Shown: piece after piece, positions 20,303-49,986 of the stretch
Numbering within the stretch: the first letter of the stretch is position 1
Layout: each line of letters begins with the position of its first letter
Source of the DNA: Siphonodentalium dalli
Taxonomy: Eukaryota; Mollusca; Scaphopoda; Gadilida; Siphonodentaliidae
DNA: 64,000 nt
NCBI GenBank assembly: GCA_032622095.1
Contig: CP136066.1
Span: 90,541,319 to 90,605,318 of the forward strand
Direction: 5' to 3'
Translations under genes and position numbers: made by a program
Notes under the pieces: generated by a model
Told to the model about the DNA's origin: nothing
Database searches by the model: none
Seen by the model: only the letters and a program-made list of their open reading frames with translations

Positions 20303-20306
20303 TTAA

Positions 20307-26418: not shown

Positions 26419-26646
26419 TCACACGACGCTGGATGATGTTCTGTCCTTTTTGGAAGATGATGACGAGTCAGAGAAGCTTCCGTAACCTCTCTTCAGTTGG
26501 ATGCCGCAAGTCCCGTCTAACATACTCATGAGTTCGTTGCGGAATCGGCGGGCTGACAGGCAGTACAGCACGAAGTTGATCGACGAGTTTAGCACAATCC
26601 CCAGTTTCGCTATGGCATACGCTTCATTTACGACAGTACCGTCGAC
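26419..26646 (-). CDS. GPCR exon 3: TM7 and C-terminal tail, stop
   Basis: The exon encodes residues 267-341 and stop TGA at 26421-26419. The acceptor is a pyrimidine tract ending TTTTTTTAAG|GTCGAC, phase 0, matching the exon 2 donor. TM7 reads AKLGIVLNSSINFVLYCLSA, followed by helix-8-like RRFRNELMSML and a cysteine (TCGIQ) that could be palmitoylated. The short tail is serine-rich (FSDSSSSSKKDRTSSSVV), offering kinase sites for desensitisation. The frame is open from acceptor to stop with exactly 76 codons. Confidence 0.85.
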   Translation of the reverse strand, partial: VDGTVVNEAYAIAKLGIVLNSSINFVLYCLSARRFRNELMSMLDGTCGIQLKRGYGSFSDSSSSSKKDRTSSSVV

Positions 26647-29600
26647 CTTAAAAAAACGAAAAATGTCAATAATTCACGTTCTAGAGATCAAAATAGGTCG
26701 CCAAATACACGATATGCATTTATTACATGATCCTACCCTTAATCCATTCAATAAACCCATTCTAGACATTGTGATGTTAAACGTTCGTTTAATAACAGGA
26801 AATAGTGCCATATGTGACCTTTGACTACCGGTTTGTCGTCTGCTTACATTATGTACCTCTCAAAATACTATGGCTCCAATGTTTTTTCAGCAAACTATAA
26901 TGAATGAAGAGTTTAACAAGTTATGTTATTAAATATACACCATTAAATGCGCAAAAGAGTCTTTTTTTAGCTGGAACCATTTCTCTGCGCGGGCAAACTA
27001 TACGCATAGTTATGTGAAACGTCATCGCATGCCTTATAGAAGCCGATGTTAGTTTTGCGTCCCATTTGTTGATTTAAGTATGTTTTGTCGAGGTTTAGGG
27101 TCATGTAATAAATATAATCTACAACTCCTCCCCATTTTATAGCGGGATTTACAAAACTCGTCCAGTAAATTAGGTCTGGATCTCGCCAAAGGCTCGGTCC
27201 AGACCTAATGTACTGGACTCGGTTTATAAACCGGAGACTCGTTGTAGATCCTATATATATATAATTTCCAGTTGATATATCATCTTGAGAACAGCAGTAT
27301 AATTTGTTCAAAGAAAATTGTTTGCAGAATAAATTAAGTATTATGGCATTTCATATATATAAGAACTATTTGTCTTGGGAAAGAACCTATTGAATCGTTG
27401 GAGATTATCGTTTCAGTGTAGAGCGGAGGAAGATACACGTTTCTAAGCAAGGTAAACATGTATGCCGCACAGTATGCGCATTGATGGATCTTAGAAATAT
27501 CCTATTTTAACTGAATTGAGTAAAACTAGTAGTAGACATACAATACAAATTCATGTTTTATGTACGTTTAACCGCTATATCATGTTAGATTGACCCCCCC
27601 CCCCCCCATGCACCGAAAACACTGGTCGAAAATTGGTCCAGTTTGAAATGTGTTCCGTAGCTTGACAAATAGGAATAAATATGAACCAGGACAAGGTTGC
27701 CAGTTACTAACTGGCGGTATACTTATGTTGTTTCAAAGTGCAGTGGCGTACAGTAATATACCGGTTTATATTTCAAAGCTTCAGCCTTTGGTCGCTAAAA
27801 TTGGACAGCTGATTCGTGTGATCTCCTTCTACTTTGCAGCAAGCGCGATAACTCTATTAATATACTTAGTCGTACACATCGAAATGAAATGTGATCAGAC
27901 CTGTATAAATTTGATGTTTATAATATAACATTTTGAAGTAATATATTGTAATACTGGTCCAAAACAACATAATTTACATTAACAATTGGTTAATTGGAAA
28001 TTCAAATTATCTGAGCAACTTCAATCTGTTGTCACTCTGAAATAAAATACCCAACTGTTGAAATTTGTTACCATTGTTGATTTAAAACATATTTTATTGT
28101 ATATATATATTATATACATGGGGATTGGGAAACAAGTTTTGTCAACTTAGTGACGTCCCTCTCCCGCAAAAAAGGTGTAACATAACATTTAAACAAGATG
28201 ACAGGATGAAATATGTGTGATAAAGCAAAGAAACAGATGTGAATATGTGTACAGAGTGTGCTATGACTCATAGCCTATGAGTGGGGTTTTATTGTGTCCA
28301 GATTTTTTCTCTCGCGTTCTCATACGTTGTGTCTAAAAAGGCCGGGCATTTAAATTTTTAATTGTTTTCAATGACAGGTTGTCGTAATAGAGAAAAATAT
28401 ATGATGTTACCCAAAACGTTTGGTTGCAGTAATGTAGGACTGTGTAATATGAAATTGTCTGTGATCATTTTCAGTGATTCATTTTCAGAGAAGATGATTA
28501 GTATTTTCTATATGAAAGTTATTAGTTTCAAGATTGTGGTAAAATATTCTTCTCTGGTTGGTGAACAATGGACGGTGGAAGAAGAAATCAATAGCATCCT
28601 CCTTCGGGAAACCACATTGACATTTATGACTATCTGCTATGTGATTACTGTGCATGTCATCTTTAGGTCGCTACAATTGTTACCATGGTTGGGGGGTGAG
28701 ACAACTCCAAACCACATGTCGCCTCATCCTTGCGGAACCTATACAGGGTACACTTACTGACTCAGGCTGCAGCATGAAGAAACATTGGACAATGCACTGT
28801 AAGCCAATTAAAACCAAGAAACTGAAGGTGACCACAAGTAACAGAACAGTTATCTGCCTTTCTGCTTTCTTCTGTTTTTGTCTGGCCTCTTCTGATTTCT
28901 TGTCGCTGACCCTTTTGTTGGCGCGGCCGATTGCTCTCACGATGAGCCCATTCAGGATGGCTATTGTCAACCATGGAACCAGTACCAGGAACATGCAGTG
29001 GATCCAGAACTCGTACAAGTCGCTTCCCTTTCCGCCTCCGAAGTCGGTTTTTACGAAAGCTGTCTCGTTGGCGTTTCTCTCATGGTCTCCGATTGGTTGG
29101 AATGTTGCGAAGTGCGGCAAGTTGATAACGAAGCAGAGGCCGGAGATGATTGCGACCCCGACCATAGCTCTTTTCTCGGTACACATTCCCTGCAATTTAA
29201 AGTGTCAAATACACTAAATTTTGACCTTTAAACATTTGCGAGTGTAACCCCCTAAAATATGTCATGAAGATCATATGTTTCGCACTTCAGTATACAGTGC
29301 CATCTATTTTTGACCTTTTTTCTAAATAGTAAACTGCCAAACTGTACCACATATATAAAGAGAAAAAACGTCCTGATCGCTACACATTACTCTATTTACC
29401 GACAGTGATGAACGGTTGCGACGCGGTTGATATATGGGCATGAATATCCGTGACCTGCAAGCTATTGCCCGGTTATATAACGAGACATCGGAAAGAATTT
29501 TAAAAATAACTAAAATGAACAGTCTGGCTATCAAATACCACACTGTGTCGCCATCAATGACTCGAACCAGCTTTTACTTGAATCCCGAATATACCTTAAC

Positions 29601-32600
29601 CAAGCCTGAGTTTATTGTGCCTGTCATTTGCAGAATTATATCCCCAGAGGGTGAATTTAGTGACGCTATCTCACACAGCTAGCATCACTATATTCACCCT
29701 TCTGTGGACCTCATTTTGCTGAGGCCTCGTCCTCTGGAAAGTTTCTTTATAGTCAAATTTCTATAGAAATTTCTTCACATATAGATTTGATTTCTTTTTT
29801 AGTTAAGTTTCTCTATATCCCCAAATTGACAGACCACACATTGCATAATCGAGGTTCCCAATGGGTGTACATCACAATATTCACCATTTGGGAACAATCA
29901 ATCTGTTCATGTCTCCCATAGCAGATGAGACCATGCAGAATGAGGTCACCGGATGGTAAGTTGGCGATGCTAGCCCGCTGTGCGGGGAGAGCGTCACTAA
30001 ATTCACTCTCTGGGTACCCCATTCTGCAAATGGCAGACACACTAAACTCACGCTTGCTTTTAACATGGGGTAAAAATCCCGGAAGCAGGCTAACTGACGG
30101 GGTATGAATCCCGCGCATACCGCGTGAAAATTGGCTGAATCCCGCGTACCAACGGGAGGTGAAACTCTTCTGAAAATTCAGGAGGTGCACATCAGACAGA
30201 GTTCGAGGTCTGGATTTAAAAATATGCAAATTGTGTTAAATAATAGCAAACGTCAACTCATCGCGTGATCGAATGCGTTCCGTATATTTATGTGATACGT
30301 TTTTAACAAAGTTATCATGAATCATGATCAGTATTCATTTAACAGAACATATCATCGCGAAATAAACATATGAGCGTGGTTCCGAATCCCGGTGTACGTG
30401 GTTCAAACTTATTCAGCTGATAACACGCCGTGTGAGTTCCCGACGATCACAAACCCACAGTGTACAAGAAAACTAAGATGCATGCATCAGGTCGGCCGTG
30501 AACTATCTACCATAGAATTGTTGTAGCTATCGATTATACATTTTGAAACACCTGTCTGTATGTATGTATGTATGTGTGTATGCGTGAATGCATGTGTGTA
30601 TGTGTTATAGACTCTAACACTGCTCGAATTTGGTATTTAACGTGTCAACTTGACCTCGCTCATAGGCATGTTTCTGGACCTTGACCGATCCGACTAAAAA
30701 TTTGTGAGTATAGGACTACTTCGATCCCGGGAGCAATATGGACGGGTCCAATTTCACGTGGGACCATGTTCTCGAACGTGCTGATATAGGCATGTTTCTG
30801 GACCAATTGAACAATAGTTTGGCCAGACGCTGTATATACTGGGTACTGTCCAGATGGAGGCGATCACAAAAAAAATCCCTAACTAGCCCGAACGAAGTCG
30901 AGTACATCAGCTAGTTTAATATATATTTTGGACATTTGTCTGTCTGTTTGTCTGTTAGCTATGGCCGGGAAAACTGCCGGACAGATTTGACGAAATTTGT
31001 TACCTAGGGGAAATTATTTCCAGGGAGTATTTTGGACGGGTCAAATCTTGATCCCGACCTGACTTTGACATTCAAAAAGATCAATTCAAGGTCAAATCTG
31101 GTAAAACGGAAGTATTTCAACGAAATTTGATACCTACTGTTACTTTTGTCCCAGGAGTGTTTCGGGTGGGTCAAATCATGACCCTGACCTGATCTTGACA
31201 TTCAAAATTGTCAATTCAAGGTCAAATCGGGTATAAAGCCGGGCGGATTTCGACGGGTACTTTTGTCGTGACTTTTGTCCGGGGAGTGTTTTGGACGGGT
31301 CAAATCGTGACCCCGACATGACCTTCACCTTTAAAATAGTCAATTCAAGGTTAAATCGCGCATTTCTCCGAAAATCAGAGGGGAACATCCCGGACGAAGT
31401 GGGGTCCACGAGCTACTATTATATATTTCTAGATTTAGTTACAAACTAAATACCTGTATATTGTACAAAGAAATGTTTGACAAATATATCTGTATCAATA
31501 TTACCATACGGGTCATTAAAATAGATACGACGAAACAAATTTTGAAGGGTGCATGTATCAGGTAAATTTTTATATTTCAAATGATGACAGGAATGCAGAA
31601 AGTTGAAGTACCTACGTAATACTGGCTATCCGCATGAAGAGATATACATGTATATAAAAACCAGATGAGGGATATGTCTGTACAGTTGCTAAACAATTCA
31701 GTCATGCAAAAGAGGATCAAAGAGTAAGATACCAAATTGCTGCCTGTGGTAATGTTTTTTAACGAAATTCGGGAAAATTAGATTACTCTCACCCTGGTTA
31801 TCCAGAAGATAATTGTGGAATCTGATGACGATCGGACAAGGGGTCTCGTCTGTAGGATCAACCAAATTATTTAGCCATAAAAATAGTAAAATTGAAGATC
31901 ACCGCTGGCAGTGATGTCTTCACAAGGACAGTTTGAGAACAAAATATGGCTCACATCTAGCGGTGACCCAAAATATCCAAATAAGAAAAAGTTCTCCAAT
32001 AAAAGCTGGCTGCAGGGTGCGCCAATTGATTCAAATTCGAAATTTAGCAGGGTGTACTGCTTGTGGCCATGTTTTCCCCGCAAATTTGATAGACTGATGG
32101 ACAAAACCACTGAATCCGTTGAATCAATATACATGTATACATGGATTAATGTATATGCATTGTTATACACAGTACTGGTATATAAAGGTACTGAAAATAA
32201 CTATATTACTAGTATACACAAAATAAACCATATATCATGGCTATGGGTTCTAATATCCGAACATGACAGCTGAGAACTTGGTGTGAATTAAAGAGTGGTG
32301 GTTTCTCAAGCATATCTAACCCTCCACGTTAGTAACATGCCATTAAATGTCATAAGTATAATCTAGCTTGAGGACAGAAGTGATCCATAAAACCCCCTTA
32401 ATTCAACCAGGTCCTCGCGCGATGTATGATCGATCACATGATGATCTAGGGGGATTAGAATTGATGTATAAAAACAGCACTGCATGTAAATATAAAATAA
32501 AATAGTGCTACATCTTATTACAGATTATTGCCATATATAATCAGTGATTATACAGACAGTCTGACAAAATAAAGTTTCAGTGACACTCTATCCGAAGAGG

Positions 32601-35600
32601 GGAATAATTTCATCTGTTACAGTCAATGGAGCAATTATGAATCTGGAAAGGTGAAATTTCTAAGTAATACTAGATATCGACATGACGCGATAAAATATAA
32701 CGTAAATGCAATATGGCCGCTGGCGACCATTTTTTCCTATGAAATTAAAACAATATTTGATAGCTCTCATCTGATAGATCAATATCAAGATAAATATGAA
32801 GTTTGGTGATGATCGGATGAGTGAAGTGGACTGTGGTCTGTGCTAAACAGTTTAGTAATGCTTAAAAAGATTCTTACCTTAATATTTTTATGTTCACTTT
32901 ATAAACTTCACTGAGTCATCTTTGTCATGTATTGAGTTTGATATCTTTTGTTAACAGTTTATTAATCATGTATGTCTCATGTTTGTTATTTTAATTTATG
33001 TGTTTATTATCATTAAATAAAGTTGCATTCCTTAAAAAGATTCTTACCTCAATGTTTTTATGTTCACTTTATAAACTCCACTGAGTCATCTTTGTCATGT
33101 ATTGAATTTGATATCTTTTGTTAACAGTTTATAAATTATGTATGTCTCGTGTTCGTTATTATATTATATACACTTTATAGTGTGTTTTCAGAACGAAAAC
33201 AAATTGAATAAAATCAACAAATTTGTAAATTTAAAAACAATTCAAACGTTGTTGTATTCCATGTCCCAGCCCGGACATATACACCAAATTTCAATAATAT
33301 TCATTGAGAAACAACGGACCAAACGCTATATAACACCCGTATACATCTTTTATTCCGTATCGGACTCGGGTACATGTTATAGTAGGTACCGAATTGACAC
33401 ACGTCGACTGGGCGAGTTGGCCCTGGGGCGATTAGGCCGATTCCGGCACATTCTAGAATTTACCGTATGTATCCGTTTACGCGTAGTTTACTTTAGAAAG
33501 TTCCGCAATTAATACCGTAAATAGAGCGACCTTATTTGACAGAGAATGCCTCTGTTATTGATTATCAAGTTGCTGTACATTAAAAACGACAAATTCACAT
33601 GCTCGTTCAAGCGCAGTTAGTCTATTTTCCCCATGTTAAAGGACATCCACAAATACTAAATAACGCTAACCTACTGCCGAATGTTTGACACGACAACTGT
33701 TAACATATTTGGGCTGAATTCATCTGACGCGGTATTATTCCTCAAAATAAACAACAAAACCATCGTTACTTGGAAATGTAGTTTGGGCTAACATTTACAT
33801 AAATCCTCCAGATCAATTATCCGACACACACGTCAGATGAAAAAGTCACATGAAGTAACCGGCCAAATTGGCCGAAATAAACCGTACAAACATTAAATCG
33901 GAAGTTGTTTTCGAAAAGACGAAAAATGCTATTTTTAGAACGTAAATGTGACAGAAATATCACAACAACACCACAAAATCCAGGTTTCAGACGGAAACAC
34001 GGTCGCACCACATCTATAAACGTAATTATAAATTGTACATACACATTTGCCGATCGTACGCGGGCTCCATTTGGGCGAAAGACTCTGTTTAATAGACAAA
34101 AGCGGCCTTTGATCACTTCATAAAAAAACATTCTCGCAAAAATTCCCTCTTCAAATGTCATTTTAACACATATCCAGCATATGTCGGAAACCCCACTATA
34201 TTGCAACAGAAAGGGCGTTATGTGTGCAACATATATCGATATGCCCTTGGCTCGAGTGTATTCACAATTTAAAAGTAGAGAGTATTTATTTGGACAACCC
34301 ACTCGTCAGTCTATGTACGCCTAGTTGTGTACGACGACAATACTAGTTGCGATGTTATACAGGAATCGTACAGTAATGATATGTTCCTTTCGATCCACTT
34401 AAACATAACTATGTCTTCGAAATGTCACGTCATTGAACTTATAGACTCTGCATGAATCAAACAAGGTATTCCGATACTATTTAGCTACTTTTATTCGACT
34501 CCGCATGTAACAAAGCTGTATTTGGGGGTTGAGGAAATATGTTGTATTGTGATGAAATTGTGTATAGGTCAGGGGTGGGGTCTGCAATTGTTTTCCGAAC
34601 ACTAGGCGGGGCGGTGGTTGGTTCTGCAGCCCTGCTTACACATTTTTCCTGGCCCTGTAATTTTTTTCCAAGAGTCATTTTTCTTCAAAATAATGGGACA
34701 GAAGGTTTTAAGAATGTTTTTATTATGTAACATGTATGCACTTAACCCTTGGTATGGGGGTTTGAGTTCACCAGCAGTTAATAATGGGGAATGACACCAA
34801 GGGGTAATAAAAATGTCAGCTTGCTAAATGCTCAAGGATCTATCAATGCACATTGGCATGGAAAGGCTCATATTTAAATAGTTCTATTAAAAATCATTTA
34901 TTCAACCTGGTGTAAATGAAAGCATAACACAATAATAGATTCTTGAAATAAATGTAAACTCTTCACGTGAATGTACTCAATTCGATTCGATGGTTCCCAT
35001 ATCATCAGATTCCAACAACAACATTTTGTTTTTAAATGCCGCGACAGTTATATAAGAATCGCGTAATTGCCCAAAACTAATGTTAATCACAGTCAAATAT
35101 AGTATAAAATTTCCCTAAACATGTTATTGTCAAATATCTGACACAAAAAAATCACTTGTTTTTAGAGTTATCCATCTTCATCCGCAATTTGTTCAGAGAA
35201 GTCTTCTCGTCGACTATTTACTGGGCCTTTTAAAATTAAAATAATAGAATTCAAACATCGAGATGTGATCACTCTGAGCTTTGACGGATCGGTTCCGCGA
35301 CTCGAATCAAATATCTTTTACCGCCGATGCCAAGGAAATAGTAATTTGCGCAGAATTGCGAGCGACATTTCGGATTGAGTACTTTTAACTCTTCAAATAA
35401 AAATAGACTATTAAAAAACTGTAATAAAATAAAACAAATGTGTTAAAACAAACTTTGACCGATTTCAACGTTATTCGGTATATGGGTCGAGGATCACCTA
35501 TAGATGGGAGCTGTCAAATTTGAATGATTTTTTATGAAAAATATGGCCACTAGCAGCCATCTTGGATTTTTGCTCTTTGCATCACTAAATCCTTTAACAC

Positions 35601-38600
35601 AAAATGCAGAGCTTATCCCTCATCCGATCATCACCAATCTGTATATGGATCTTCGTTGTGACCTCTCGGTGGGTGCCTTCGATTTTTTCCCAAATTTTGT
35701 AAAACAAATGGCTGCCATTTTGGCCATCTTGGATTTTACTCTTTGTATGACCAAATCCTTTAGCACACCTTACAGGTCACATTTCTCATCCAATCGTCAC
35801 CGAGCTCCATATGGATCTTCGACGTGGCCTCTAGATGGGAGCCTCCATTGTTCAGCAAAATTTGTTTAAAACAAACATGGGCACCTGAAGCCATATTGGA
35901 TTAAAAATGTCGATCCATCAGCATACCGTACAGCCCACATTTATTGGAGAATTGTTTTTGAAACTTTACAGTGCTGTTGGTATATAAAAGTGGGAATGCT
36001 TCTATAATCATGATACGGAACATTGATAAGAAAAGATAGATCAGGAAAACTGAGTAAAATAGTCATTTGAAGCAGTTTGGATAGGGTGGGTCCCTATCCC
36101 AGATTCGGAAAACGGATGTGGAGCGGAACAGTGCCTTTCTCTTGTGATTGAAGGTTAATAATGACCATCGGGAGGCCGAGTATCTCTAATATGGAAACCT
36201 AATTCATGGGTTCGTCTTTTCACATAAATCCCATTATCACAACTTGGCGTACATATTTTTGGCAACTAGTGATCATCAACTTAAACAACTAGGCGTACAT
36301 AGACTGAGAGCGGGGTGTCCAAATCAATACTCTCTACGTTCAAATTGTGAATACACTCGAGCCAAGGGCATGTCCATATATGTTACACACGTAACGGCCT
36401 TTCCGTTGCAATATAGTGGGATTTCCGACAGATGCTGGATATGTGTTGAAATGACATTTGAAGAGGGAATTTTTGCGAGAAAATTCTTTTCTGAAGTGAT
36501 CAAAGTCCGTTTTTATCTATTAACCAGAGTCCTTCGCTCAAATGCCCCCCGCTTACGATCGGCAAATGTGTATGTACAATTTATAATTACGTTTATAGAT
36601 GTGGTGCGATCGTGTGTCCGTCTGAAACCTGGATTTTGTGGTGTTGTTGTGATATTTATGTCACATTTACGTTCTAAAAATAGCATTTTTCGTCTTTTCG
36701 AAAACAACTTCTGATTTAATGTGTGTACGGTTTATACACTGTGAAACCGGGTTCTTGTGGGATAACCTGTTTCACAGAGTGTGCTGTTCGTGCGCATATC
36801 ATGGGCGATATTTGTGCCGTATGATGAACGTGGCAGGTTGCATCAATGTCAACAGATGCATCGCTGCATGGAGACCAATTCAACTAGAACATTTACACAT
36901 GCTTTGGACATATTTGTTACCTATCACACCATGATACTAACTGCTTTAAGTAAGGGTGGATACACACGTGCATGTAATCTCTGTAATTATCGTGTATTTG
37001 GCGTTTTACATGGATCATACAGACAATGTAATACGTGTCCATTGCCAACCCAATCATTGCCGACGTGTTGACCGCACTGAGTTCTAGTTCCAATTAAATC
37101 GGAATGTACAGAAACCGCTATCTTGTACCGAGTCGCCAGGCCACTTAAAATAATTGTTCGTGGGATAACCCAAATGGTGGACGTTCTATTAAAATAATTA
37201 CCAGTCCTCTCTTGATTTTTATAGCAGTGGTGGATCAGGATTTCCCAGACGCAGGGGCTATATATGATCCCCGACTTGGGGCTATATATATATATGATCC
37301 CGAAAGATACCGGGCGGGGTGGCTAACTCTGAGCTATTTAAGTAAAACATATTATATTGTACCTTCTTGTCCAGATTATTCCGGCCGATACATTCAACTA
37401 AGTCCCTTGGCGATTTGAAGCTTTCGAGACCCCACGCCAAACAAACATCATGGTCGAAAATGTTCCATATCAAGCCAGTATATGCCAGACGTGTCGCGTC
37501 TGGTGTTCGTGCATTAATAAAATGCCAAATATCACACAGACTTGACTAATTTCCGCATCCGTAAGAGAAGACATGTTTTGGACTGGCCTTAAATGTCCTG
37601 ATAGCAGACAGTTTGACTTCGCTTATCACTACTCACTTGTCTGGCCTGTTAACAATGAACCGCTCGCGCGCAGGTGATTAATGTTATCAATGGTGTGGTC
37701 ATCAATGGTGTGGTAAGATACATGTATCAATGGTGTGGTAAGATACATGTATTTTACATACATAGATTACATGCATGTGTGTATCCACTATCCACCCTAA
37801 GTGCCGACGTTTTCGCTATTGTTTACTAGAAACGTAATCAATCTACAATATGAGCTCGCAATCTATCTGAAAAGTAGTAATTGGTATGGGTATATATATG
37901 GAAATGTTTTCACCTATACCCTCTGTCATCGTGTCCCGCTGTGCAACGTCCGCACCCGGTGTGAGTTCACGTATGACCAGCGTGGTACTATCGGAGGAAA
38001 TCTATTGTAATTATTAGTATTACAGAATACACATAATGAATGCATGTTTAATACAAATGAAAAACCTGTCGGTCGGTACATATGAAGGAACGCGATTGGT
38101 TTGAAGGATCGGGTGTTTATGGTTTTGCTTGTAACTAGCGCTCCGAGATAACGTGGTAATTAAATATTGATGAAACAGAAGGTAGACTACAACCAGAAAG
38201 AAATTTGGTTTGATGTCATTTAATACGCAGCGCAATATCTGCGAGCCAGATATTTGAATTACCTCAATTATTTACCGAAATTAAGATGGAGCTGCACGTT
38301 TTGCATAAATAGAGCCAAATATGGCAAGAGATTTTCAACAAAGTATTTCTCTGGATCTATCTGTCGAAAAATCTTGAATTTCACATATCATCAACTTCAT
38401 TATTTGTAGAATCTGAACAATTATTAAGAGGTGACAAAAACAATGAATTATAATACATTTGGGAGGTTGAAAATGGTATTTTCTTTGTTGTCCCTTCCGG
38501 TACCAAGAGCTGCTATAATAATTAATAATTTTACACAACGAACAATCATCAAACAGCTTATTGTCTTGGCTCCATGAGAGGGGCTTCATTTGTATCGTTA

Positions 38601-41600
38601 TGTGGAGTTAGATTTTTAATTGCACAATATAGTGTCATACCCCCATATATTATAACTAGCTGGTGGACCCAGGGATGTGGCTAGAGGGTCTCCGCTGGGG
38701 GGGGGGTGTCCACCTTGGGAATTTCCAACTGCACCCCTCCCCCTTGAGTCGCAATCACACCAACACAACTTTTTGCATAATTCCATTTGCACACCCCCCC
38801 CCCCCCCCCCCTTGAGTCGGAATCGTGCCAACCCAACTTTTTGCATATTTCCATTTGCACCCCCCCCCCCTTGTACCTCATGCTCAGGCCTAATTTCCTA
38901 TATATTTATAAGCCATGCTTCTATTTTCCCAGTATGATAACATTAAGATATTTTAATCTGAAAATTGCCCCCAAAAAAACAACTAGTGATCTAATTCCAG
39001 ACAAATGCACACAGCTACCGACAACAGACCAGGAAACACCGGGCCGACCATGGTTGTTCGGCCCGGTGTGAGAAAATTTTGAAAACTATACAAGAAAATC
39101 GCAAATCCTAGCATCAAGACTGGCCTCAACTGAAGCTTTCCTAGTGTTGGAAATTTCAAACCTCATATTCCCCCTCAGGTTGGAAAATTCTTCAACTGAT
39201 GACCATTTATGTCTACAAGTTTGACCAAATGTAGTAAAATATTGTTTTGCTAAACTAATTAGCAGTTTTGTAATTGGCCATGTGAATGGGGCAATGACAC
39301 ACCGGGCCGACCATGGTTCGGCCCGGTGTGTGAAAATTTTGAAATCTGAACAAGAAAATCGCAAAATCCTAACATCTAGACTAGCCTCAAGCCTTCCTAC
39401 TGTTCGAAATTTCAAACCCTACACCCCCACTTAGGTTGGAAATTGACCAATTGTATGACAATATTGTTTTCTTAAATTAACTAGAAGTTTTTGACTGGCC
39501 ACGGGGGAGAGACCAGGACACAAGCTTTCCAAGTGTTGGAAATTTCCAACCTGTCACCCCCCTAAGGTTGGAAAATTTCCAACTGATGACCATTTCTGTC
39601 AAAAAATTTGACCAAAAATAGGAACATATGCAAATATTGGTCGAAAAACAATAAATTCCCCCAATAAATTGTTTTATAATCAAACTACAAGAACATTTTC
39701 AACCTATTGTTGGTGTGAAATTTCGTTGTGGCAGGTATGAAATTTCCAACTATTGAAAATATAGCTCTCTGCTGGGGGGTGAGACACCCCCCACACCCCC
39801 CCCCCCCCTCTAGCCACATCCGTGGGTGGACCCGACTTCGCCCGGGCTGTTTCCCCTCTGCTTTTCGGCGAATTGCGCGATTTGACCTTGAATTGTCCAT
39901 TTTGAAGGTCAAGGTGAGGTGGGGTCACGATTTGACCCGTCCAAACCACTGCCCGGACAAAAGTACCCGACAAAAGTACCCGTCGAAATCCATCCGGTTT
40001 TACCCGATTTGACCTCGAATTAATCATTTTGAAGGTCAAGGTCAGGTCGGGGTTACGAGTGGACAAAAGTAACCATATGTATCAAATTTCGTGGAAATCC
40101 CATCAAAATTCGCGATTTGACCTTGAATTGACCAGATTTTAAGGTCAATGTCACGTCGCACGGGCAAATGAATAGGCTTATGCCATTCCCCGGTCGAAAG
40201 TATCCCCACATACCAAGTTTCATCAAAATCCCGTGATATTCGGGCGTTTTACCTTGAAATGACCCGATTTCAAGGTCAGGGTCACGTCGCACGGGCAAAT
40301 TAATATGCCCATGTCACTCCCCGGCCAAAAATGCCCCCACATACCAAGTTTCATCGAAATCGGCTCGGCTGTTTTCGAGTCCATCGATTACAGACAGACA
40401 CACAGACAGACAGACAGACAGACAGATCTTCCAAAATATATAATAGATTAGAAGGTGACCCGACTTCGTCCAGGCTTTGACCTTGAATTGTCCATTTTGA
40501 AGGTTAAGGTCAAGTGGGGTCACGGTTTGACCCATACAAAACACTGCCCGGACAAAAGTACCCGACAAAAGTACCTGTCGAAATGCATCCGGTTTTACCC
40601 GATTTGACCTTGAATTGATCATTTTGAAGGTTAAGGTTAGGTCGGGCTCACGACTCGACCCGTCCAAAACACCCAGTGGACAAAAGTAACCCCATGTATC
40701 AAATATCGTCGAAATCCCTTCAAAATTGGCGATTTGACCTTGTATTGACCCGACTTCAAGGTCACGTCACACGGGCAAATGAATAGGCTTATGAGACTCC
40801 CCATACGAAAGTACCCCCACATACCACGTTTCATCGAAATCCCGTGATATTCGGGCGTTTGACCTTGAAATGACCCGATTTCAAGGTCAAGGTCACGTCG
40901 CACGGGCAAATTGATAGGTTTATGCCACTCCCCGGCCGAAGGTATCCCCACATACCAAGTTTCATCGAAATCCCGTGATATTCGGGCGTTTGACCTTGAA
41001 ATGACCCGATTTCAAGGTCAAGGTCACGTCGCACGGGCAAATTAATAAGTTTATGCCACTCCCCGGCCGAAGGTATCCCCACATACCAAGTTTCATCGAA
41101 ATCCCGTGATATTCGGGCGTTTGACCTTGAAATGACCCGATTTCAAGGTCAAGGTCACGTCGCACGGGCAAATTAATAAGTTTATGCCAATCCCCGGCCG
41201 AAAATATACCCACATACCAAGTTTCATCGAAATCCCGTGATATTCGGGCGTTTGACCTTGAAATGATCCGATGTCAAGGTCACGTCGCACGGGCAAATCA
41301 ATAGGCCTATGTCACCCCCGGCCAAAATATACCCTCACATACCAAGTTTCATCGAAATCGGCTCGGCCGTTTTCGAGTTCATCGATTACACACACACACA
41401 CACCCACACACACACACACCCTCACACACACACCCACACACACACAAACAGATCTTCCAAAATATATAATAGACTAGCCGATGAGCCCGACGTTGTCCGG
41501 GCTATTCCAAACCCAAATTTCAAGTCGATAGCTCTACCCGTTTCCGAGATCTGGTCTGCGCATGCGCACGGGCTCGGCGACCCGATAAAATTCGTATCCG

Positions 41601-44600
41601 GGGCAAGATACATTCACATACCAAATTTCAAGTCGATAGCTCCACCGTTTCCGAGATCTGGTCTGATTTGCGGATACCTCGGCCGGTGATGAGTTAACGC
41701 GACATCGGCCGGTTAAGAGTTAAACGCGATCACGTCACGATCTCTTGACGGCGAAATAGATTGCACGGAATGTTTTTCGATGACCGAAGCATGGTCCTGC
41801 GTTCTTCCCGATAATTAAGGTAGAAACTTTAAACGGACACAGGCGTGTGATATATCGTTGGAAAGAGGAAGCGCCACAGATTCTAACCATGCAAATTATA
41901 TGACTGGCAATTTATTATTCGCGCTATATCGAATCGATTTGTGAGCACCGAACTGAAATATATTAGCGCAAAACGGCGTAAAAACAGATTTGACCTCGGC
42001 ACGTGAAAAGTTGATCTCGGATCTGAAATCTGATGAGCTGATATTGACCGCCTGGTCAGACTACACACACGTACCAAGTTTCGTCCCGATCGCGCCACCC
42101 GTTTCCGAGATCTCGTCTGCGCATGCGCTGCCCGGGCGTCGCACGGGCTCGCCAATGCGACAACGACGACCGCCTGGTCAAACTACACACACGTACCAAG
42201 TTTCGTCCTGATCGGTCGAGAATCGTAGATTTGTATTAATGACAGACAAACAGACAAACAGACAGACAGACAGAGGTCTTCAAAATATATATGAGATAAT
42301 AAAGCAGTAACAAATATTCCAGCCCAATGAAAACAACTGGTTGATATGCAGTGTGGTCCACTCAAGCATCAAGCAATCAAAAGAAATTAGGCCACAGTGT
42401 TAAGAGATATGGTGGTCAGCTTCAACTTGGTTATGAAGCCATGAGAATTCATCTCAGCCCAATTTTTCATTGAACAACATAAATGACATGAAACTTATCA
42501 AATATAGAAAAATATGTGAGGGTAGTTGTCTTTCTAAGTGAAAATAATCATAAAATTTCATGAATCAAGAAAAATTAAGTCTCCTCTCATGATCTTCAGA
42601 TATGATATCATGGATATATGATCTGCACTATTGAAACAAATCTAATTTACATAAGTTCTTGGTACCTGAAAATGGTGAAATTTTAAATATTTGACATGCC
42701 ATAAAAGTGAATTAAATGAGATTATGATAATCAATTGTTCGATGGTTCTTAAATATTGTATTACAATAAACGGGTGTACCAAATTTCACAAATAAATTCC
42801 TGGCAGATTTTTAGAAAATCCATTTAGAAATACCAGAAAATTTTGGCCAAACGTGCATCTGACCCTTAAAATAAAACGCTAGAAATGGTATAAAGTATAT
42901 TCCGAATTAATGTCTGACGTTGCATATATGATATCCATGTATACCGTATCTCATATATATTTTTGAAGACCTCTGTTTGTCTGTTTGTTTGTATGTTTGT
43001 TTGTCTGTCATTTATACAAATCTACGATTCTCGACCGATCGGGACGAAACTTGGTACGTGTGTGTAGTTTGACCAGGCGATCGTCGTTGTCGTATTGGCG
43101 AGCACGTGCGGCGCCCGCTTCGCGCATGCGCAGACGAGATCTCGGAAACGGGTGGAGCTATCGACTTGAAATTTGCTATGTGAATGTATCTTGCCCCGGA
43201 TACGAATTTCATCGGGTCGCCGAGCCCGTGCGACGCCAGCTTCGCACATGCGCAGAACAGATCTCGGAAACGGGTGGAGCTATCGACTTGAAATTTGGTA
43301 TGTGAATGTATCTTGCCCCGGATACGAATTTTGTCGGATCGCCGAGCCCGTGCGACGCCAGCTTCGCGCATGCGCAGACGAGATCTCGGAAACGGGTGGA
43401 GCTATCGACTTGAAATTTGGTATGTGAATGTATCTTGCCCCGGATACGAATTTTATCGGGTCGCCGAGTCCGTGCGACGCCAGCTTCGCGCATGCGCAGA
43501 CCAGATCTCGGAAACGGGTAGAGCTATCGACTTGAAATTTGGTTTTTGAATAGCCCGGACAACGTCGGGCTCATCGGCTAGTAATAATATATAATAATCA
43601 AATAGTAACATATATAATAAATGTATATATTGTATTTTTATTAACTGTTTTATGTTTGTGTATTCGTTACTTGTGTTCTTTTGTAGAAATAAAATTTATA
43701 AATAAAAAAAAAATCCGAATTAATGCTGAAATATGTGAAGATAGATAGATTTATTTCCTCAAGCCATCAGATAATGGCGCAGAGAAACTAAACACAAAAC
43801 AATACATTTTACAATATCTGTCAACAATGTGAGAAGGAACAACATACAAATTAATATATAAAATTAGACACGAAAACAACATGAGTTAGCTATGCGGATA
43901 TAATTCGGAGTTCTTTACATACATATTGTATGAATTCACATAATTTCATGTTAATTGACATTTTAGTATTTGAAAGTAAAATTCTGAGTTTAGACATGCT
44001 CGGGCATTGTCGATATGATCGATGTATCAGCCTATCTCTTTCTTTGTCAAAATATGGGCACTGGAATATATAATGATATTCGTCTCCTAAACGGTCATGT
44101 TGGCACAATAAACAAATTCGGTTATTTCTAACTGTGCCATTCCACCGACCGGTTTCAATAGGCAAAGGGTGATTACTTGTTCTAAATCGAATTAGATTTA
44201 TTACACACGAATTATCGCACTTGGATATGTAGCTTTCTTTTTCAAATTCCCGTTTCAGAAGTTTGTACAAATTTCCTCTGGTTGATCTGTCAATACACGC
44301 ATGCCACTCCTGGATATATTGGTCTTTTAACTTCCTGGTCAGGGCTGTTTCTACATTTTTAATATCTATTTCGCAATTTTGATTTAGCCAGATGTACGAC
44401 ATCCCACACTTATCAAGTGTACTTTTGATACTTTTAATCCAGAAAGACTCGAAGAAAGATTCTTCGTGTAGGGTGAATATGTAGATGCATTATATATTAC
44501 ATCGTCATCTGGCGGATCATGGTTTTCGCCACGATTACTTTCTCTGATGCAGTGAGTGTTTTTGTCTGGATTGCCTGTCAAGGGATGGATGGTCTGTTCC

Positions 44601-47600
44601 GGATCCTCTTAACTGAATGGGATGACAGTACTATAGAACTCTCACTATTTCCTTTTATTAATCACACGCATCAGATATAACACTGGCGTGCGAGGCAAGT
44701 CTATCGTAAATAGCTATATTGGTATTTAGTTTAAAGTGTCTTCTGCGTGTGCACTATTTATACCACTTGCTGTATTGGTTGTTGACATTAGCCATACATA
44801 TCAAAGATGTACAATATATGTCGAATACGGTTCAAAACACTCGGCACTGTCATGACATCGAATAGCTCTCGATCATGACTAGCCCTCATATATAAGGCTC
44901 AGCCGGTGAGGTGCGTTGTGCGTTAGTCTGTACTATAAGCCGCCAATATGTTTCGATTCCCGATAAGGGCCAATTGGTGTTTTACGCACAGTAGAGTTTG
45001 ATATTAACACTTACTGAGGTCTTTCCACGACCGATATCAAACTTACACATTCGCGATGATGATGATGGTGAAGATGATGACGATGATGATGATGGCGATG
45101 ATGATGATGATGATGATGATGATGTATCACTATACGAGTCTGTTTGTGAGAAAATCGTGGCGTTCAAATTTCTTGCCACTCGCAATAAGTTGATATGGTT
45201 TTGTTTGACGTGATAATTTTGTTCTTAAATATCCGCATCGAAAAACACAAATGTTATTATGATGGCAATGGCGACATGGAAGTGTAAGAGGTAGGGGTAT
45301 ATGTATATGTATATGAAGGTGATGTTAGTAATGTGATTCACGATTCTACTGTAGTTGAGTCCTGATACATGTACTTCAGTCGGTATTCGCGAAAAGATGT
45401 CAATTATATATACCAGTCTGGGATTCGAGGAGTTGAAGATATTGGAGCATGGTAGTTCATGTATAGATGCATGCATATAAGCTGTAATGTTCAGAAGTAC
45501 ATGCACGTGTATGATGACAAAAACCGTCAAATTCTAAAATTCTCTTGGAAATGGGGAAGGTTCATCTGTGCATACGGCAGCAGCAATTTAATAGCCTGGT
45601 TTAAGAACCCATCCTACAACTTTTTTCTCCAAACAGTGTTTTACTTCATTGGTTTATGTTGATCGTGATTAAAATATGAAGAATGTGGTCGCATAAGAAA
45701 ATAGTTGAAGTCATAGTCTTTATGTGTTTTCGCCTTAATCTTTTCCGATATTTATAGTTTTATGGGGGAAAATACCTTAAATTTATATTTTTATAATTTG
45801 TGTAAAATGTATCAAATGTATCGCATTCAAAAATCTTGTGAAATTCATTTAAAGTTCCGAAATTTCTCCCCCCCCCCCCCCCCAGTGCATCTACTTTTTC
45901 TCAACCCAAATGTTCGTAAATCGGGCTATTTTACTGTTGTGGCATAAAGATTTAGTACATTCATCACCTCCTGTAGACGGGAGTTCTTTTTCACATTTAC
46001 GTACGAAACATGCCGTTGAGTAGTGTGGCGGGTTGGTATATCCAATTTCTTTATTCCGCCCAATTATGGGACAATGCATTCATGTATTTTATCTTTCAAT
46101 CAACAAAAATGACATAACCATGCAGTGGTTTAAACATATTTATTCGCCATATATGCATAAAAATACATACATTTGGCAACGGGATTGAAGAACAAGTGCG
46201 GGCCACTTATATGATACTTCTCTCCCGATCATCAGACAATCAAGTGAAAGAAAAACATGAACATGCATGGCATTGAACAATTATATATGGTATTAAAGTG
46301 TATAATGTTAAAGTTTGATTGTTGCTAGTCTCTCACAACTTGTTCGAAAGTATCTGGTTGCTATATAGTGTACTGTGCTCATCTATCCTTAACAATGGTA
46401 AGGTGGCAGGACAGTGCAATATGTTCTTATAGAGCATTTATGACTATACTCAGAAATATTATTTTTATTATTTTGTTTTTTCTTTCTTCCCTAATAGTCG
46501 TCTGCTGTTGAACTTCGTGAACCATGCAGTGCACATTGAAGTCTTGCTATAGTTTGCCGTGAGCCTGTAATAGTACGATTCCCCCTCCCCCCCCCCCCCC
46601 ACCCCAAGTACGAAACCCGCGTGTTCAATTAATACTGGCCAATCGCCGATACTGTTTAGTCGCCTAATTTCAGCACTGTCGATCAATTCAACGAGTTTGA
46701 AATAGATTTCCGTCTCCATTTGGGGTGAACAAACAAATTGACCATTTTCGAAAAAGAAAATGGCCATTGGCCACCGACAGCGTTATCGCTGGTCTTAACT
46801 ATGCAAAGCTATAAAGCGTCGTTGATCCTATTTCTAGAAAAATATTGATTTTACCACACGCATACAGCTGTATATGCACAATATTGTGTAAGTGCAATTT
46901 ACAAATCTGTCTATATAGGCTGGCATTACATGGTAAAGTAATTTCCCGTCGAACTGATGATCAATGTGCAATCAGTTTATTATCAACAATTGTTGTTTTG
47001 GCAGCTGACTTAGTATATCGATAGCTGAAATTGATAAGGAAAAAAGTTATTTCAAAACACGAGAAGGGCGGTGTAATAAGAAGCAACAGCGAAACATCGA
47101 ACCCGGTCAAATGATAAGCTCGATCAACTGTCAAGATATATTTACGCCCGGTCGTTAAAATGCGAGAGATTTCTGACGCATCTGTGTCGACCATACGATC
47201 TGACATGTTATTTCAGTCGACATCATTTGCAATATTATCCATCGATTTACCTATAGGAAGGTTGTTCTTATGAGTGGTTTTATTTTTATTACACGATCCT
47301 ACCCTTATTCCATTCTATAAACCCATTCTAAAAAATGTGATATGCAACGTTCGTAGCATAACAGGAAATAGTGCCAAGTGACCTTTGACTTCCGGCTTGT
47401 CGTCTGTTTACAATACGCACGCTATGTCTCAAAATACTATGGCCTCCGATATTTCTCCAACAAAACATAGCAGGAAATAGTGCCAAGTGACCTTTGACTT
47501 CCGGCTTGTCGTATGTTTACAATACTATATCTCAAAATACGATGGCTTCCGATATTTTTCCAACAAACTCTAATGAATGAAGAGTTTGAAATGTTATTTC

Positions 47601-49986
47601 ATTTAATACACGCCATTAAATGCGAGTCTTTATTTATCTGGGACTTTTTTTTTGACGCGGGCAAGCAACGCATCGTTATGTGAAACGTCACCGCATGCCT
47701 TATAGAAGCCTATGTCAGTTTTTACGTCCTATTTGTTGATTTAAAAGTGTTTTGGATCATGTATAAATAAAATCTACAACTCGTCACCAGTTTATAGCGG
47801 AATTTACAAAACTCGTCCAGTAAATTAGGGCTGGTCCTCACCAAAGGATCGGCCAGACCTAATTTACTGGACTCGTTTATAAATTCCGCTATAAACTCGG
47901 TACTCGTTGTAGATTCTCTATATATTACATTGACGAAAATCAACTCCTTCGCTCAGGAGCAAGTAGGTCAGTTGACTAACCTCTTACCTTCACATTCGAC
48001 TCGGCGGGGTGTTCTAATTCGACAGGGTATCGGTATACTTAGATATATAACTTTGAATCGAGCGCATCACTAATCGACCACAAACACGTGGGAAGTTCCC
48101 CTGAATGCATATATGTGACCCGCCATATCAAATCCAGTCGGAAGTCGGGATTTTTTTACCCTGTGCCAATGCATTCTCTTATATATGCGAGTCGACCATA
48201 GGTCGCCTCGCATATATAAGAGAATGCATTGGCCTAACAATTTTTTACAATTTTAATAATTTGTTCTTGTATTCTTTAACAATTTTATAATTTCACCCAT
48301 ACAGAGCCCCAGACATACATGAGCAGACGACACTCTTCTATATGCTTCTATATATGTGTGGGGCTCCCTGCAGGGTAATGGATGTTTTTTATTTTATGTC
48401 CTAAAAATTGTAAGAAACATTTATTTTTAAAAAATGATAAAAAATTGTTAGGCCAATGCATTCTCTTATATATGCGAGGCGACCTATGGTCGACTCGCAT
48501 ATATAAGAGAATGCATTGGCACAGGGTAAAAAAATCCCGACTTCCGACTGGATTTGATATGGCGGGTCACATATATACAACATATATGGAGTTTATATTC
48601 AACTGCGAATTGGTATACCGTAGCTGCAAGTGTAATGTCCAGGACATTATGTCCTTGATTCTAATCGATGGGATCAATCATCAAGTGCTATTCGTATTCA
48701 TGCCAGTGACGGGGACGTTTATGTTAGAACACGCACTTCAAGACATTGATAGACTATAACTCTCTAAACTGTAAAATATTTCCAATGACAGCTGAAATAT
48801 AATATATCGATAATACCACAATGAGAGCGAGCATTGAGTACTCTTAACCCTTTGAGTGCCAGGTCCGATTTTTGTATCGACCCATATACCCTGTGCCAAT
48901 GCATTCTCTTATATATGCGAGTCGACCATAGGTCGCCTCGCATATATAAGAGAATGCATTGGCCTAACCCAAAAAATATATATAAAAAACAAAAACAAAT
49001 CATTTTTTTTATTTTTTTTAGGGCACTCTGCAGACCATAAATTAGGGCCGATGAGATCGGCCCCTGGCACTAAAAGGGTGTTAATAGTCGCATACAATAC
49101 GGACTATACGACACAAGTTTGTTAGGTTACTGGCCGTCAGTTTATGGCACGAGTGCGAGAGCGTAAGGACAGCATGAGAAGACAGAGGCCTCGATTGTTA
49201 TCCTTCCGCGTTATCAAGATTACCATAAACCATCGGCAAGTAACACGCATGTGCTGTTTTGTGTTTATTACACGCCCGACCAACATCTGCTAACTGATGT
49301 TATCTGACATGGTGTTTCTTATCTTGTTATTTGTCACAATGATTTTGTTTTTATTTTAAGTTCCAGCTTCAACTCAATTAACGTCGTGTAACGTCAACAT
49401 TGATCCATTTCACAAACACGTGTGGAGTGGCTATTAAAATACGACACGGGCTGAGACGGGGGTCGGCGCGTTTTTTCTGGAACATGCGTTTAATTATAGT
49501 CTTCTGCTGTGTGTGCTTGGACGTGCGACGTTCGCGTTCTCTAATATATACGTTTTTGTGTAAAGCTACAAAATGAGGCATATACATCCTAGAATTCGGT
49601 CGTGTATAGCAAATACTAACCTTTGCGTGATTGATGACGCAAACCATGATGTAACGATCGACGGTAACGCCGACTGTGTACCATATGCTGCAGATAACCG
49701 ACAAATACAGGAACGGGTAGCCGATATACGAATGGAACACACCATATGCGTAGTCAAGGTTGATTTCCGGGGCAATCACTTTCAATGAGTCCATCAGGAA
49801 GAATAAAACCAGCACGGCAATATCTGCGATCGACTGAGCAATCAAGTATGCCCCAGTTGATGACCTCATCTTTTGTCGCCGCCATATCGCGATGGACAGC
49901 GCGTTTCCAAGTATACCTATGACGACAAAGATCGGCGCAACAATGGCGCTACATGCCCAGTGCATCACATCTCCTGTGCCACCCAT
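26419..49986 (-). CDS. FMRFamide-receptor-like rhodopsin-family GPCR, three coding exons, 341 aa
   Basis: Joined coding exons are 49986-49621, 29189-28758 and 26646-26419. The predicted product is a plasma-membrane peptide-type GPCR signalling through heterotrimeric G proteins; the ligand is not determined by sequence. Seen: GN at residues 27-28 (TM1), AQSIAD with D55 (TM2), DRY at 110-112 (TM3), TM4 ~131-152, sequon N163-E-T165 in loop 2, TM5 ~183-205 with P194, a basic loop 3 (~207-233), TM6 ~234-260, and LNSSINFVLY at 285-294 (TM7, NFxxY in place of NPxxY). The NSSxNF-type TM7 and a TM3 start without the usual disulfide cysteine fit FMRFamide-receptor-like proteins. All three exons join in phase 0 with GT/AG sites. 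An in-frame TAA at 50019-50017 precedes the ATG. The intron 1 of 20.4 kb is inferred, not proven. Confidence 0.82.
26721..27250. repeat. Dispersed repeat copy 1 (partner 47287-47915), in GPCR intron 2
   Basis: TATTACATGATCCTACCC, AACAGGAAATAGTGCCA, TGACCTTTGACT and TTATGTGAAACGTCA...GCATGCCTTATAGAAGCC occur in the same order here and at 47287-47915. The repeat ends in a hairpin MITE (27116-27250). It begins only 75 bp from the exon 3 acceptor. Confidence 0.8.
27116..27250. mobile_element. Hairpin MITE, copy 1
   Basis: The ends AATCTACAAC and GTTGTAGAT(C) are complementary, as are CCAGTAAATTAGGTCTGG and CCAGACCTAATGTACTGG nearer the centre. About 135 bp, non-coding. Copy 2 is at 47771-47915. 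Confidence 0.75.
27251..28757. other. Rest of GPCR intron 2, unassigned
   Basis: A poly(C) run lies at 27594-27607 and an AT dinucleotide tract near 28100. No coding region or repeat partner recognised. The open frame at 28362-28760 only touches the exon 2 donor on the opposite strand. Confidence 0.4.
28758..29189 (-). CDS. GPCR exon 2: TM4 to TM6
   Basis: The exon encodes residues 123-266. The acceptor is AAATTGCAG|GGAATG and the donor is GAGTCA|GTAAGT, both phase 0. TM4 contains the LPHF turn, TM5 contains the LVPWL proline, and loop 3 is highly charged (RVSDKKSEEARQKQKKAER). TM6 follows as QITVLLLVVTFSFLVLIG and lacks the CWxP motif of many rhodopsin-type receptors. The open frame beyond the donor to 28680 is read-through. 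Confidence 0.85.
29600..30060. repeat. Imperfect inverted repeat, arms ~130 bp
   Basis: GAGTTTATTGTGCCTGTC, ATTTGCAGAAT and GTGAATTTAGTGACGCT in the left arm (29600-29730) pair with diverged complements in the right arm (29930-30060). The spacer is about 200 bp. Probably a decayed foldback or MITE pair. Confidence 0.6.
30462..30914 (+). mobile_element. Helitron-like element 4, 3' part
   Basis: This repeats the 3' ~430 bp of element 1 (ACAAGAAAACTAAGATGCAT onward) with small indels and ends ACATCAGCTAG at 30914, followed by T. A TATG microsatellite is at 30550-30605. The true 5' end is not certain. Confidence 0.6.
30915..31416 (+). mobile_element. Helitron-like element 5
   Basis: It starts directly at the CTAG end of element 4 with TTTAATATATATTTTGGAC and a TCTG/TTTG-rich 5' region typical of the family. 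It ends GGGTCCACGAGCTAC at 31416, a one-base variant of CTAG, after CCCGGACGAAGTGGGG. The interior has imperfect ~115-125-bp repeats with GACGGGTCAAATC and CAATTCAAGGTCAAATC. Non-coding. Confidence 0.6.
31650..32100. repeat. Degenerate ~170-bp satellite-like repeats (copy B)
   Basis: Counterpart of 12900-13340: CTGCCTGTGGTAATG, CCGCTGGCAGTGATG and CTGCTTGTGGCCATG words are spaced ~165 bp. It has lost part of the first monomers relative to copy A. Confidence 0.55.
32861..33200. repeat. Two tandem copies of a 170-bp unit
   Basis: CTTAAAAAGATTCTTACC starts at 32861 and again at 33031. The copies share CACTGAGTCATCTTTGTC and GATATCTTTTGTTAACAG with few differences. An AATAAAG word lies just before the second copy. 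Confidence 0.8.
33817..34302 (-). other. Open frame in left inverted arm, 161 codons, function unknown
   Basis: This frame and its partner in the right arm (36244-36714) encode ~132 alignable residues with about 85% identity by eye, including EYTRAKG, MTFEEGIFAR, ANVYVQFIITFIDVV and LKPGFCGVV. The region has hydrophobic stretches, but no domain I know. Conservation can come simply from recent duplication of the arms. It may be a remnant of an element protein or chance. No start context or neighbouring exon supports a host gene. Confidence 0.3.
34971..35388. mobile_element. TTAAAGGTACTC-family inverted-repeat element
   Basis: It begins GTACTCAATTCGATTCGATG and ends GGATTGAGTACTTTTAA. The interior words CCATATCATCAGATTCCAAC, GAGTTATCCATCTTCATCCG and GAGCTTTGACGG match the copies at 19090, 24568 and 51198. 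It sits in the spacer of the long inverted-repeat element. Confidence 0.65.
35530..35900. repeat. Satellite-like ~170-bp monomers
   Basis: AGCAGCCATCTTGGATTTT, GGCCATCTTGGATTTTACT and GAAGCCATATTGGATT mark three monomers, each with a TATGGATCTTCG(A/T)(C/T)GTG(A/G)CCTCT word. The period is ~170 bp. Confidence 0.65.
36244..36714 (+). other. Open frame in right inverted arm, 156 codons, function unknown
   Basis: Counterpart of 33817-34302 on the opposite strand. The open frame runs through the whole arm without stops despite numerous substitutions relative to the left arm. No recognised domain; see the note in the left-arm entry. Confidence 0.3.
36734..38655. other. Unassigned intron sequence
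   Basis: A perfect 9-bp stem CTGTGAAAC/GTTTCACAG lies at 36738-36776. Short tandem copies of ATCAATGGTGTGGTAAGATA are at 37685-37750. Otherwise no coding region or partner repeat recognised. Confidence 0.4.
38656..40447 (-). mobile_element. Helitron-like element 7, split by a hAT-like insertion
   Basis: On the minus strand the element starts at 40447 with TCTATTATATATTTTGG and ends at 38656 in CAGCTAG, shortly after a CCCG...CGGG stem. A hAT-like element and its 8-bp duplication (38662-39832) interrupt it only ~13 bases from the 3' end. Without that it is about 630 bp. The interior has GACCTTGAA/TTCAAGGTC words and a (CAGA)n tract at 40390-40430. Confidence 0.75.
38670..39824. mobile_element. 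hAT-like non-autonomous element, 1155 bp
   Basis: Perfect 8-bp target duplications GGTGGACC flank it (38662-38669, 39825-39832). The inverted ends are CAGGGATGTGGCTAGAGG and, complemented, CACGGATGTGGCTAGAGG. Near the left end are two ~68-bp repeats with poly(C) and TTGAGTCG(C/G)AATC. In the middle are two copies of a block beginning with a strong hairpin, CACCGGGCCGACCATGG...CGGCCCGGTG (39037-39072 and 39299-39330). No transposase frame. Confidence 0.9.
40448..41473 (-). mobile_element. Helitron-like element 6
   Basis: On the minus strand it starts at 41473 with TCTATTATATATTTTGGAAG and ends at 40448 in TTCTAA (CTRR type), right where element 7 begins. A CCTGGACGAAGTCGGG stem precedes the end. 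It holds the 131-bp tandem array and a CA-rich microsatellite (41390-41450). Elements 6 and 7 share 5' and interior sequence, so they are one family. Confidence 0.75.
40740..41290. repeat. 131-bp tandem array rich in TCAAGGTCA
   Basis: The unit (for example 40858-40988, 40989-41119, 41120-41250) contains TTTGACCTTGAAATGACC, TTTCAAGGTCAAGGTCACG, GCACGGGCAAATTAATA and CATACCAAGTTTCATCG. About four copies, with diverged ones further left to 40070. Each unit has three TCAAGGTCA/TGACCTTGA words. Confidence 0.9.
41474..42296 (-). mobile_element. Helitron-like element 8
   Basis: On the minus strand it starts at 42296 with TCTCATATATATTTTGAAG and ends at 41474 in CATCGGCTAG, 11 bases after the stem AGCCCG...CGGGCT. 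It abuts the start of element 6 exactly. It is an inverted relative of element 9 (42949-43581). Contains (CAGA)n at 42239-42274 and TGCGCATGCGCA at 41560. Confidence 0.8.
42297..42900. other. Unassigned AT-rich sequence
   Basis: No coding region or repeat partner recognised between the Helitron array and the retroposon. Confidence 0.35.
42949..43581 (+). mobile_element. Helitron-like element 9, 633 bp
   Basis: It starts TCTCATATATATTTTTGAAG after A and ends CATCGGCTAG before T. The 3' stem is AGCCCG...CGGGCT (about 43552-43571), 11 bases from the end. The interior is a 122-bp tandem array. All Helitron hallmarks are clear here. Confidence 0.9.
43119..43545. repeat. 122-bp tandem array with CGCGCATGCGCA motifs
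   Basis: About 3.5 units, each with GAGATCTCGGAAACGGGTGG, GCTATCGACTTGAAATTTG, CTTGCCCCGGATACGAAT and CTTCGCGCATGCGCAGAC. Single-base differences separate the units. Related single units lie in element 8 at 41530-41660 and 42080-42140. Confidence 0.9.
43735..44402 (-). pseudogene. 5'-truncated LINE: C-terminal zinc-knuckle region and 3' end
   Basis: The minus-strand frame (stop 43890) encodes LPIETGRW followed by C-x2-C...H...C (RICLLC...GDEYHYIFQC), the C-terminal motif of EEP-type non-LTR retrotransposons. It resembles the C-terminus at 62648-63169 in layout, but the residues differ much, so it is a different family. The 3' end has AATAAATCTATCTATC. Upstream RT and endonuclease are missing. 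The 170-codon frame from 44402 is intact, but its start is only where the fragment begins. Confidence 0.8.
44403..47286. other. Unassigned intron sequence with microsatellites
   Basis: A (GAT)n-like trinucleotide array is at 45053-45124. Poly(C) runs are at 45868-45883 and ~46574-46600. No coding region recognised; frames of up to ~100 codons have no motif. Confidence 0.4.
45053..45124. repeat. (GAT)n microsatellite
   Basis: Interrupted GATGAT repeats with GGT, GAA and GAC variants over ~72 bp. In the open frames through it the result is poly-Asp or poly-Ser, which I do not take as coding. Confidence 0.95.
47287..47915. repeat. Dispersed repeat copy 2 with terminal hairpin MITE (47771-47915)
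   Basis: Partner of 26721-27250. It has an extra tandem copy of the block containing GGAAATAGTGCCAAGTGACC (near 47364 and 47471). The terminal MITE has complementary AATCTACAAC/GTTGTAGATT ends and CCAGTAAATTAG/CTAATTTACTGG inner arms. Confidence 0.8.
48114..48571. mobile_element. 458-bp element with ~120-bp inverted ends containing the 69-bp palindrome twice
   Basis: The ends TGTGACCCGCCATATCAAAT and complement run inward through TCGGAAGTCGGG and TACCCTGTGCCAATGC, so each arm includes one palindrome (48165-48233, 48452-48520). The centre has GAGCCCC/GGGGCTC complementary words. Flanking bases are ATATA on both sides; the target duplication is ambiguous (TA or longer). Confidence 0.75.
48848..49080. 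mobile_element. piggyBac-like MITE, copy 2
   Basis: It lies between TTAA at 48844-48847 and TTAA at 49081-49084. The left end is CCCTTTGAGTGCCAGG; the right end is CCTGGCACTAAAAGGGTG, with two differences from the other copy. It contains the 69-bp palindrome at 48895-48963. Orientation is opposite to the copy at 20053. Confidence 0.85.
49621..49986 (-). CDS. GPCR exon 1: start, TM1 to TM3 and DRY motif
   Basis: The exon encodes residues 1-122. The ATG at 49986 is the first in frame after TAA at 50019-50017, and only about a dozen residues precede TM1, so the extracellular N-terminus is very short and has no glycosylation sequon. TM1 holds GILGNALS, TM2 holds AQSIAD, TM3 ends in VTVDRYIMVC. 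The exon ends after codon AAG with donor AAG|GTTAGT, phase 0. The open frame continues to 49378, but those residues look unlike a receptor and are intron read-through. Confidence 0.85.

Follow-up and report, generated by a model that had tools for sequence, protein, structure and literature searches.

The question raised by this locus is whether three open frames, spread across 23.6 kb of the minus strand in a 64-kb stretch of Siphonodentalium dalli DNA (the whole of which was analyzed and is here called the window), encode a single G protein-coupled receptor (GPCR). Our results indicate that they very probably do. We hold with high confidence both to the gene model, in which splicing is deduced from the DNA, and to the membership of its product in class A. 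The coding part of exon 1 (49621–49986, minus strand), read and translated directly, runs from the ATG through TM1–TM3 and the DRY motif to the start of ICL2 (residues 1–122). It is followed by a repeat-rich intron of 20431 nt (29190–49620), by exon 2 (28758–29189, minus strand), which supplies the end of ICL2 and TM4–TM6 (residues 123–266), by a second intron of 2111 nt (26647–28757), and by exon 3 (26419–26646, minus strand), which carries ECL3, TM7, the start of the tail, a Ser-rich C-terminus and a TGA stop (residues 267–341). Both introns are in phase 0, and the joined exons (49986–49621, 29189–28758 and 26646–26419) comprise 1026 nt, or 341 residues and a stop, with no internal stop or frameshift in the translation of the 341 codons. 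The coordinates, terminal dinucleotides, phases and total length given by an earlier sequence-only reading of this DNA were thus all reproduced.

Exon 1 ends in AAG/GTTAGT and exon 2 in TCA/GTAAGT, while exon 2 begins at TTGCAG/GGA and exon 3 at TTTAAG/GTC. When the exon ends were shifted by one base in either direction the GT or AG left the edge, and the single shifted join that was translated was out of frame. With a generic splice matrix, the two donors ranked 19th and 195th among 3794 minus-strand GT dinucleotides, and the two acceptors 194th and 22nd among 2870 minus-strand AG dinucleotides. These scores are good, not outstanding; the pyrimidine tract of the exon 2 acceptor is weak, and the exon 3 acceptor is AAG. 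Base composition also distinguishes the exons (GC 0.49–0.50) from the introns (0.40 and 0.36), and the joined frame has GC contents of 0.47, 0.39 and 0.62 at the three codon positions. This signal is only mild, because the 92 stop-to-stop frames of at least 90 codons average 0.44.

Stronger evidence that the frames belong together was obtained from profile searches. The joined protein matched Pfam 7tm_1 with 75.4 bits (E = 6.4e-21; curated cut-off 30.5 bits), collinearly over profile positions 7–260 of 260. Exon 1 alone scored 23.8 bits (E = 3.7e-5, profile 7–88), under the cut-off, and exon 2 alone, tested and folded as 28759–29189 and so with 143 of the 144 residues that all joins contain, scored 31.0 bits (E = 2.3e-7, profile 97–228). 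Exon 3 had no Pfam match by itself, yet it extends the joined match to profile position 260. The controls for order and omission covered the three exon pairs, which scored 65.7 bits (exons 1 and 2), 41.5 bits (exons 2 and 3) and 26.6 bits (exons 1 and 3), and one wrong order, 2-1-3, which scored 49.3 bits with the match broken into two stretches. Since every omission lowers the score and the wrong order splits the match, the claim that these are pieces of one receptor in the correct order is well supported. The same results bear on whether the frames are open by chance and merely resemble pieces of a GPCR. Exon 2 alone does weakly match unrelated membrane families too, but chance would have to account for a collinear match of this significance that weakens with each exon omitted and with the order changed, and we regard its probability as practically negligible.

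Comparison with solved structures pointed in the same direction. A phmmer search of the PDB with the joined protein returned 158 distinct sequences at E ≤ 0.01, and the top receptors among the best 60 of these were GALR1 (6.5e-13), NMUR2 (1.5e-12) and, in third place, GPR139 (5.5e-11). Searched singly, exon 1 matched 54 sequences at E ≤ 0.01, the best being melatonin receptor 1A (1.8e-9), with GPR139 far down (0.00039). Exon 2 matched no GPCR at E up to 0.1, its one match being a designed protein (E = 0.013), and exon 3 had GPR139 as its best match (E = 0.044). The exon 1/2 junction is gap-free in the GALR1 and NMUR2 alignments and the exon 2/3 junction in that of GPR139. Elsewhere the GPR139 alignment has a few small gaps in ICL2, close to the exon 1/2 junction, the NMUR2 alignment a two-residue gap in ECL3, and the GALR1 alignment a gap of several residues before TM7. 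The better overall scores of GALR1 and NMUR2, the single-exon results for exons 1 and 2 and the ICL2 gaps speak against a special tie to GPR139. Kyte-Doolittle analysis gave seven peaks above the 1.2 threshold, the lowest at 1.58, and AlphaFold, run on single sequences, gave a three-helix model for exon 1 and another for exon 2 (mean pLDDT 66.5 and 68.1, respectively). Foldseek returned 53 matches at E ≤ 10 for the exon 2 model and 6 for the exon 1 model, none of them at E ≤ 0.001, with one GPCR (GPR4, E = 6.7) among the best 50 of the 53. These null results are weak evidence, because the models are fragments of low confidence.

A tblastn search of the window with the protein recovered only its own three exons, the next match having an E value of 2.2, at which distant pieces may escape. 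We therefore set aside the possibility of alternative exons or additional GPCR pieces within the window. The single match to NCBIfam, a prokaryote library, had an E value of 0.064 and fell under its cut-off, and a search of viral contigs gave one pattern match and no confirmed one. Taken as a whole, the locus looks like an ordinary animal gene, a three-exon class A GPCR that would be a distant relative of GPR139, a receptor of the human brain, and of the invertebrate neuropeptide receptors.

At the 5' end, the ATG at 49986 is flanked by A at -3 and G at +4. An in-frame TAA precedes it 31–33 nt upstream, and about 15 residues lie ahead of the TM1 hydropathy window, which agrees with the very short N-terminus described earlier. 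A candidate acceptor on the minus strand, TTTTTCAG/A, with 50028 as its first exon base, would add a likely 5'UTR part to exon 1 (49987–50028, minus strand). The upstream stop and this candidate acceptor suggest that the short N-terminus is probably real, and a non-coding first exon upstream of 50028 is likely. Past the stop codon, the closest minus-strand AATAAA in the stretch scanned (23500–26430) is at 25599.

The repeats within its introns account for the 23.6-kb span of the gene, and introns of this kind, long and full of repeats, are normal among animals. Intron 1 contains tandem arrays with units of 131 nt (40756–41359) and 122 nt (43099–43551), as well as an inverted pair that is 91% identical (33877–34350 and 36262–36735). 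Each of the two introns carries a copy of a diverged repeat of about 0.5 kb (26719–27260 and 47285–47925, about 80% identity). The copies point the same way and flank exon 2, and a repeat edge lies 73 nt away from the exon 3 acceptor. Intron 1 also encloses a minus-strand frame (43890–44489) that is related to a plus-strand frame at 62609–63169 (identical residues in 46 of 145 aligned columns). No Pfam family matched either frame, and we take both to resemble LINE C-terminal regions.

Further repeats and putative mobile elements were observed in the window. Inverted arms at 48106–48254 and 48431–48579 are 98% complementary, and palindromic units of these arms recur at 48887–48968 and 20182–20306; the structure looks like a MITE-type element. 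A tyrosine recombinase-like frame (52821–53609, minus strand; Pfam Phage_integrase, E = 8.1e-9) perhaps derives from a DIRS- or Crypton-type element, and a reverse transcriptase frame (56327–57667, plus strand; Pfam RVT_1, E = 2.6e-25) is likely to belong to a putative non-LTR element. Direct repeats at 1–4512, which are 99.7–100% identical over up to 989 aligned nt, either arose by a recent duplication in tandem or are an artefact of the assembly.

With residues numbered from the PDB alignments and residue indices, many class A signatures were found in the joined protein, including N1.50 (N28), D2.50 (D55), D110-R111-Y112, P5.50 (P194), E6.30 (E232), F6.44 (F246) and, at TM7, N290-F-V-L-Y294 (N7.49 and Y7.53). 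The TM3–ECL2 disulfide (C3.25, C45.50) and the CWxP motif of TM6 are common in class A, not universal, and both are lacking here. Position 3.25 is S86 and residues 141–187 contain no Cys; W4.50 is also absent, and F occupies 7.50. The sequence-only reading was correct in reporting NFxxY and the missing TM3 cysteine, neither of which is confined to this receptor. GPR139 shares both, which places them within a known receptor group and means that the missing disulfide does not disqualify the protein from class A, and we rejected them as oddities. In place of CWxP the protein has L249-I250-G251-L252, aligned without gaps to LWAP of GPR139 and CWAP of NMUR2, so that I250 (6.48) and L252 (6.50) stand where these receptors carry W6.48 and P6.50.

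These substitutions suggest that activation may be atypical or that the gene may be decaying. Together with the great length of intron 1, the loss of W6.48 and P6.50 could indicate a pseudogene, or a model that is wrong in part through inclusion of an exon from another paralog or omission of a further coding exon. Against this, the 341 codons carry no stop or frameshift, exon order and phase fit, the tblastn search of the window yielded no competing piece, and the junctions are gap-free against solved receptors, all of which makes such an explanation very improbable. It is conceivable, if quite unlikely, that the intact gene we favor represents a receptor lineage of the GPR139/FMRFamide neighborhood that lacks the disulfide, the TM6 toggle Trp and the kink Pro, with a different TM6 movement and perhaps belonging to a lineage-specific sensory expansion.

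Of the relatives in the PDB, GPR139 is the closest to share these motifs, and its placement in a published tree helps to locate the receptor described here. In that tree, GPR139/142 form the sister group to a protostome clade of FMRFamide type 1, myosuppressin, proctolin, MIP, NPY-4 and RGWamide receptors, and the name FMRFamide receptor spans two groups, type 1 and type 2 (PMC8557429). A review describes GPR139 as orthologous to invertebrate FMRFamide receptors (PMC12208981). From its sequence, the protein most likely belongs to the neighborhood of GPR139 and the protostome FMRFamide-type-1, myosuppressin, proctolin and MIP receptors. Its ICL2 motif may also resemble that of Drosophila FMRFaR. 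The putative FMRFamide-receptor-like identity proposed earlier is plausible.

The second-best Pfam family, 7TM_GPCR_Srw (PF10324; 51.5 bits, cut-off 22.2), raises another possibility, namely that the gene is a rapidly duplicating Srw-like chemosensory member that detects environmental cues, not an internal neuropeptide. Srv and Srx also scored above their own cut-offs, and altered TM6 switch residues would suit such a role. The Srw match would also fit a relative of the FMRFamide receptors, since a published account relates Srw to these and to the myosuppressin receptors (PMC2576165). On the other side, 7tm_1 outscores Srw, tblastn over the 64-kb window turned up no further copy, and the His residues and disulfide typical of Srw were not found, so that we consider a chemosensory role unlikely. 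This alternative concerns the ligand and would leave both the gene model and the assignment to class A intact.

We infer the following as the most likely activity of the receptor, with ligand class and coupling, in particular, carried over from its receptor neighborhood. A minus-strand pre-mRNA would be transcribed and spliced at two phase-0 introns, located in ICL2 and ECL3, to encode a seven-helix receptor of 341 residues, most likely residing in the plasma membrane. The helix bundle could bind either a small peptide whose end is aromatic or an aromatic metabolite, and the signal may pass through the DRY and NFxxY motifs to a heterotrimeric G protein. The value of the locus lies mainly in annotation, since the model is sound and the gene would be missed by plain ORF calling. 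In addition, a natural receptor without W6.48 and P6.50 could show which switch residues are dispensable in the GPR139 neighborhood.

Nematode Srw chemoreceptors resemble the receptor described here in that it passes their profile, but their hallmarks, given in the same study as near-invariant His residues in TM1 and TM7 and a conserved disulfide (PMC2576165), contrast with a protein that lacks both His residues (H9 precedes TM1) and has Cys neither at 3.25 nor in ECL2. Likeness to human GPR139, a class A receptor (PDB 7vug chain, a fusion construct), is remote overall, and GPR139 ranks first in the PDB for exon 3 and is absent for exon 2. The segments SIW.TV..T.DRYI.VC, WIHC....LVP....ILN..IV and LN..INF.LYC...RFR are common to both, and both lack C3.25, the ECL2 Cys and W4.50 and have F at 7.50. 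The absence of both disulfide cysteines from TM3 and ECL2 of GPR139 is also stated in the literature (PMC5430874). The two differ in TM6, where GPR139 has W6.48, P6.50 and R6.51 and the gene described here has I250, L252 and Q253. In GPR139, W241 (6x48) touches the agonist, while R244 (6x51) has a critical role (PMC8807744). Judged by this alignment, the departure from GPR139 is that of TM6, with W6.48 and P6.50 lost.
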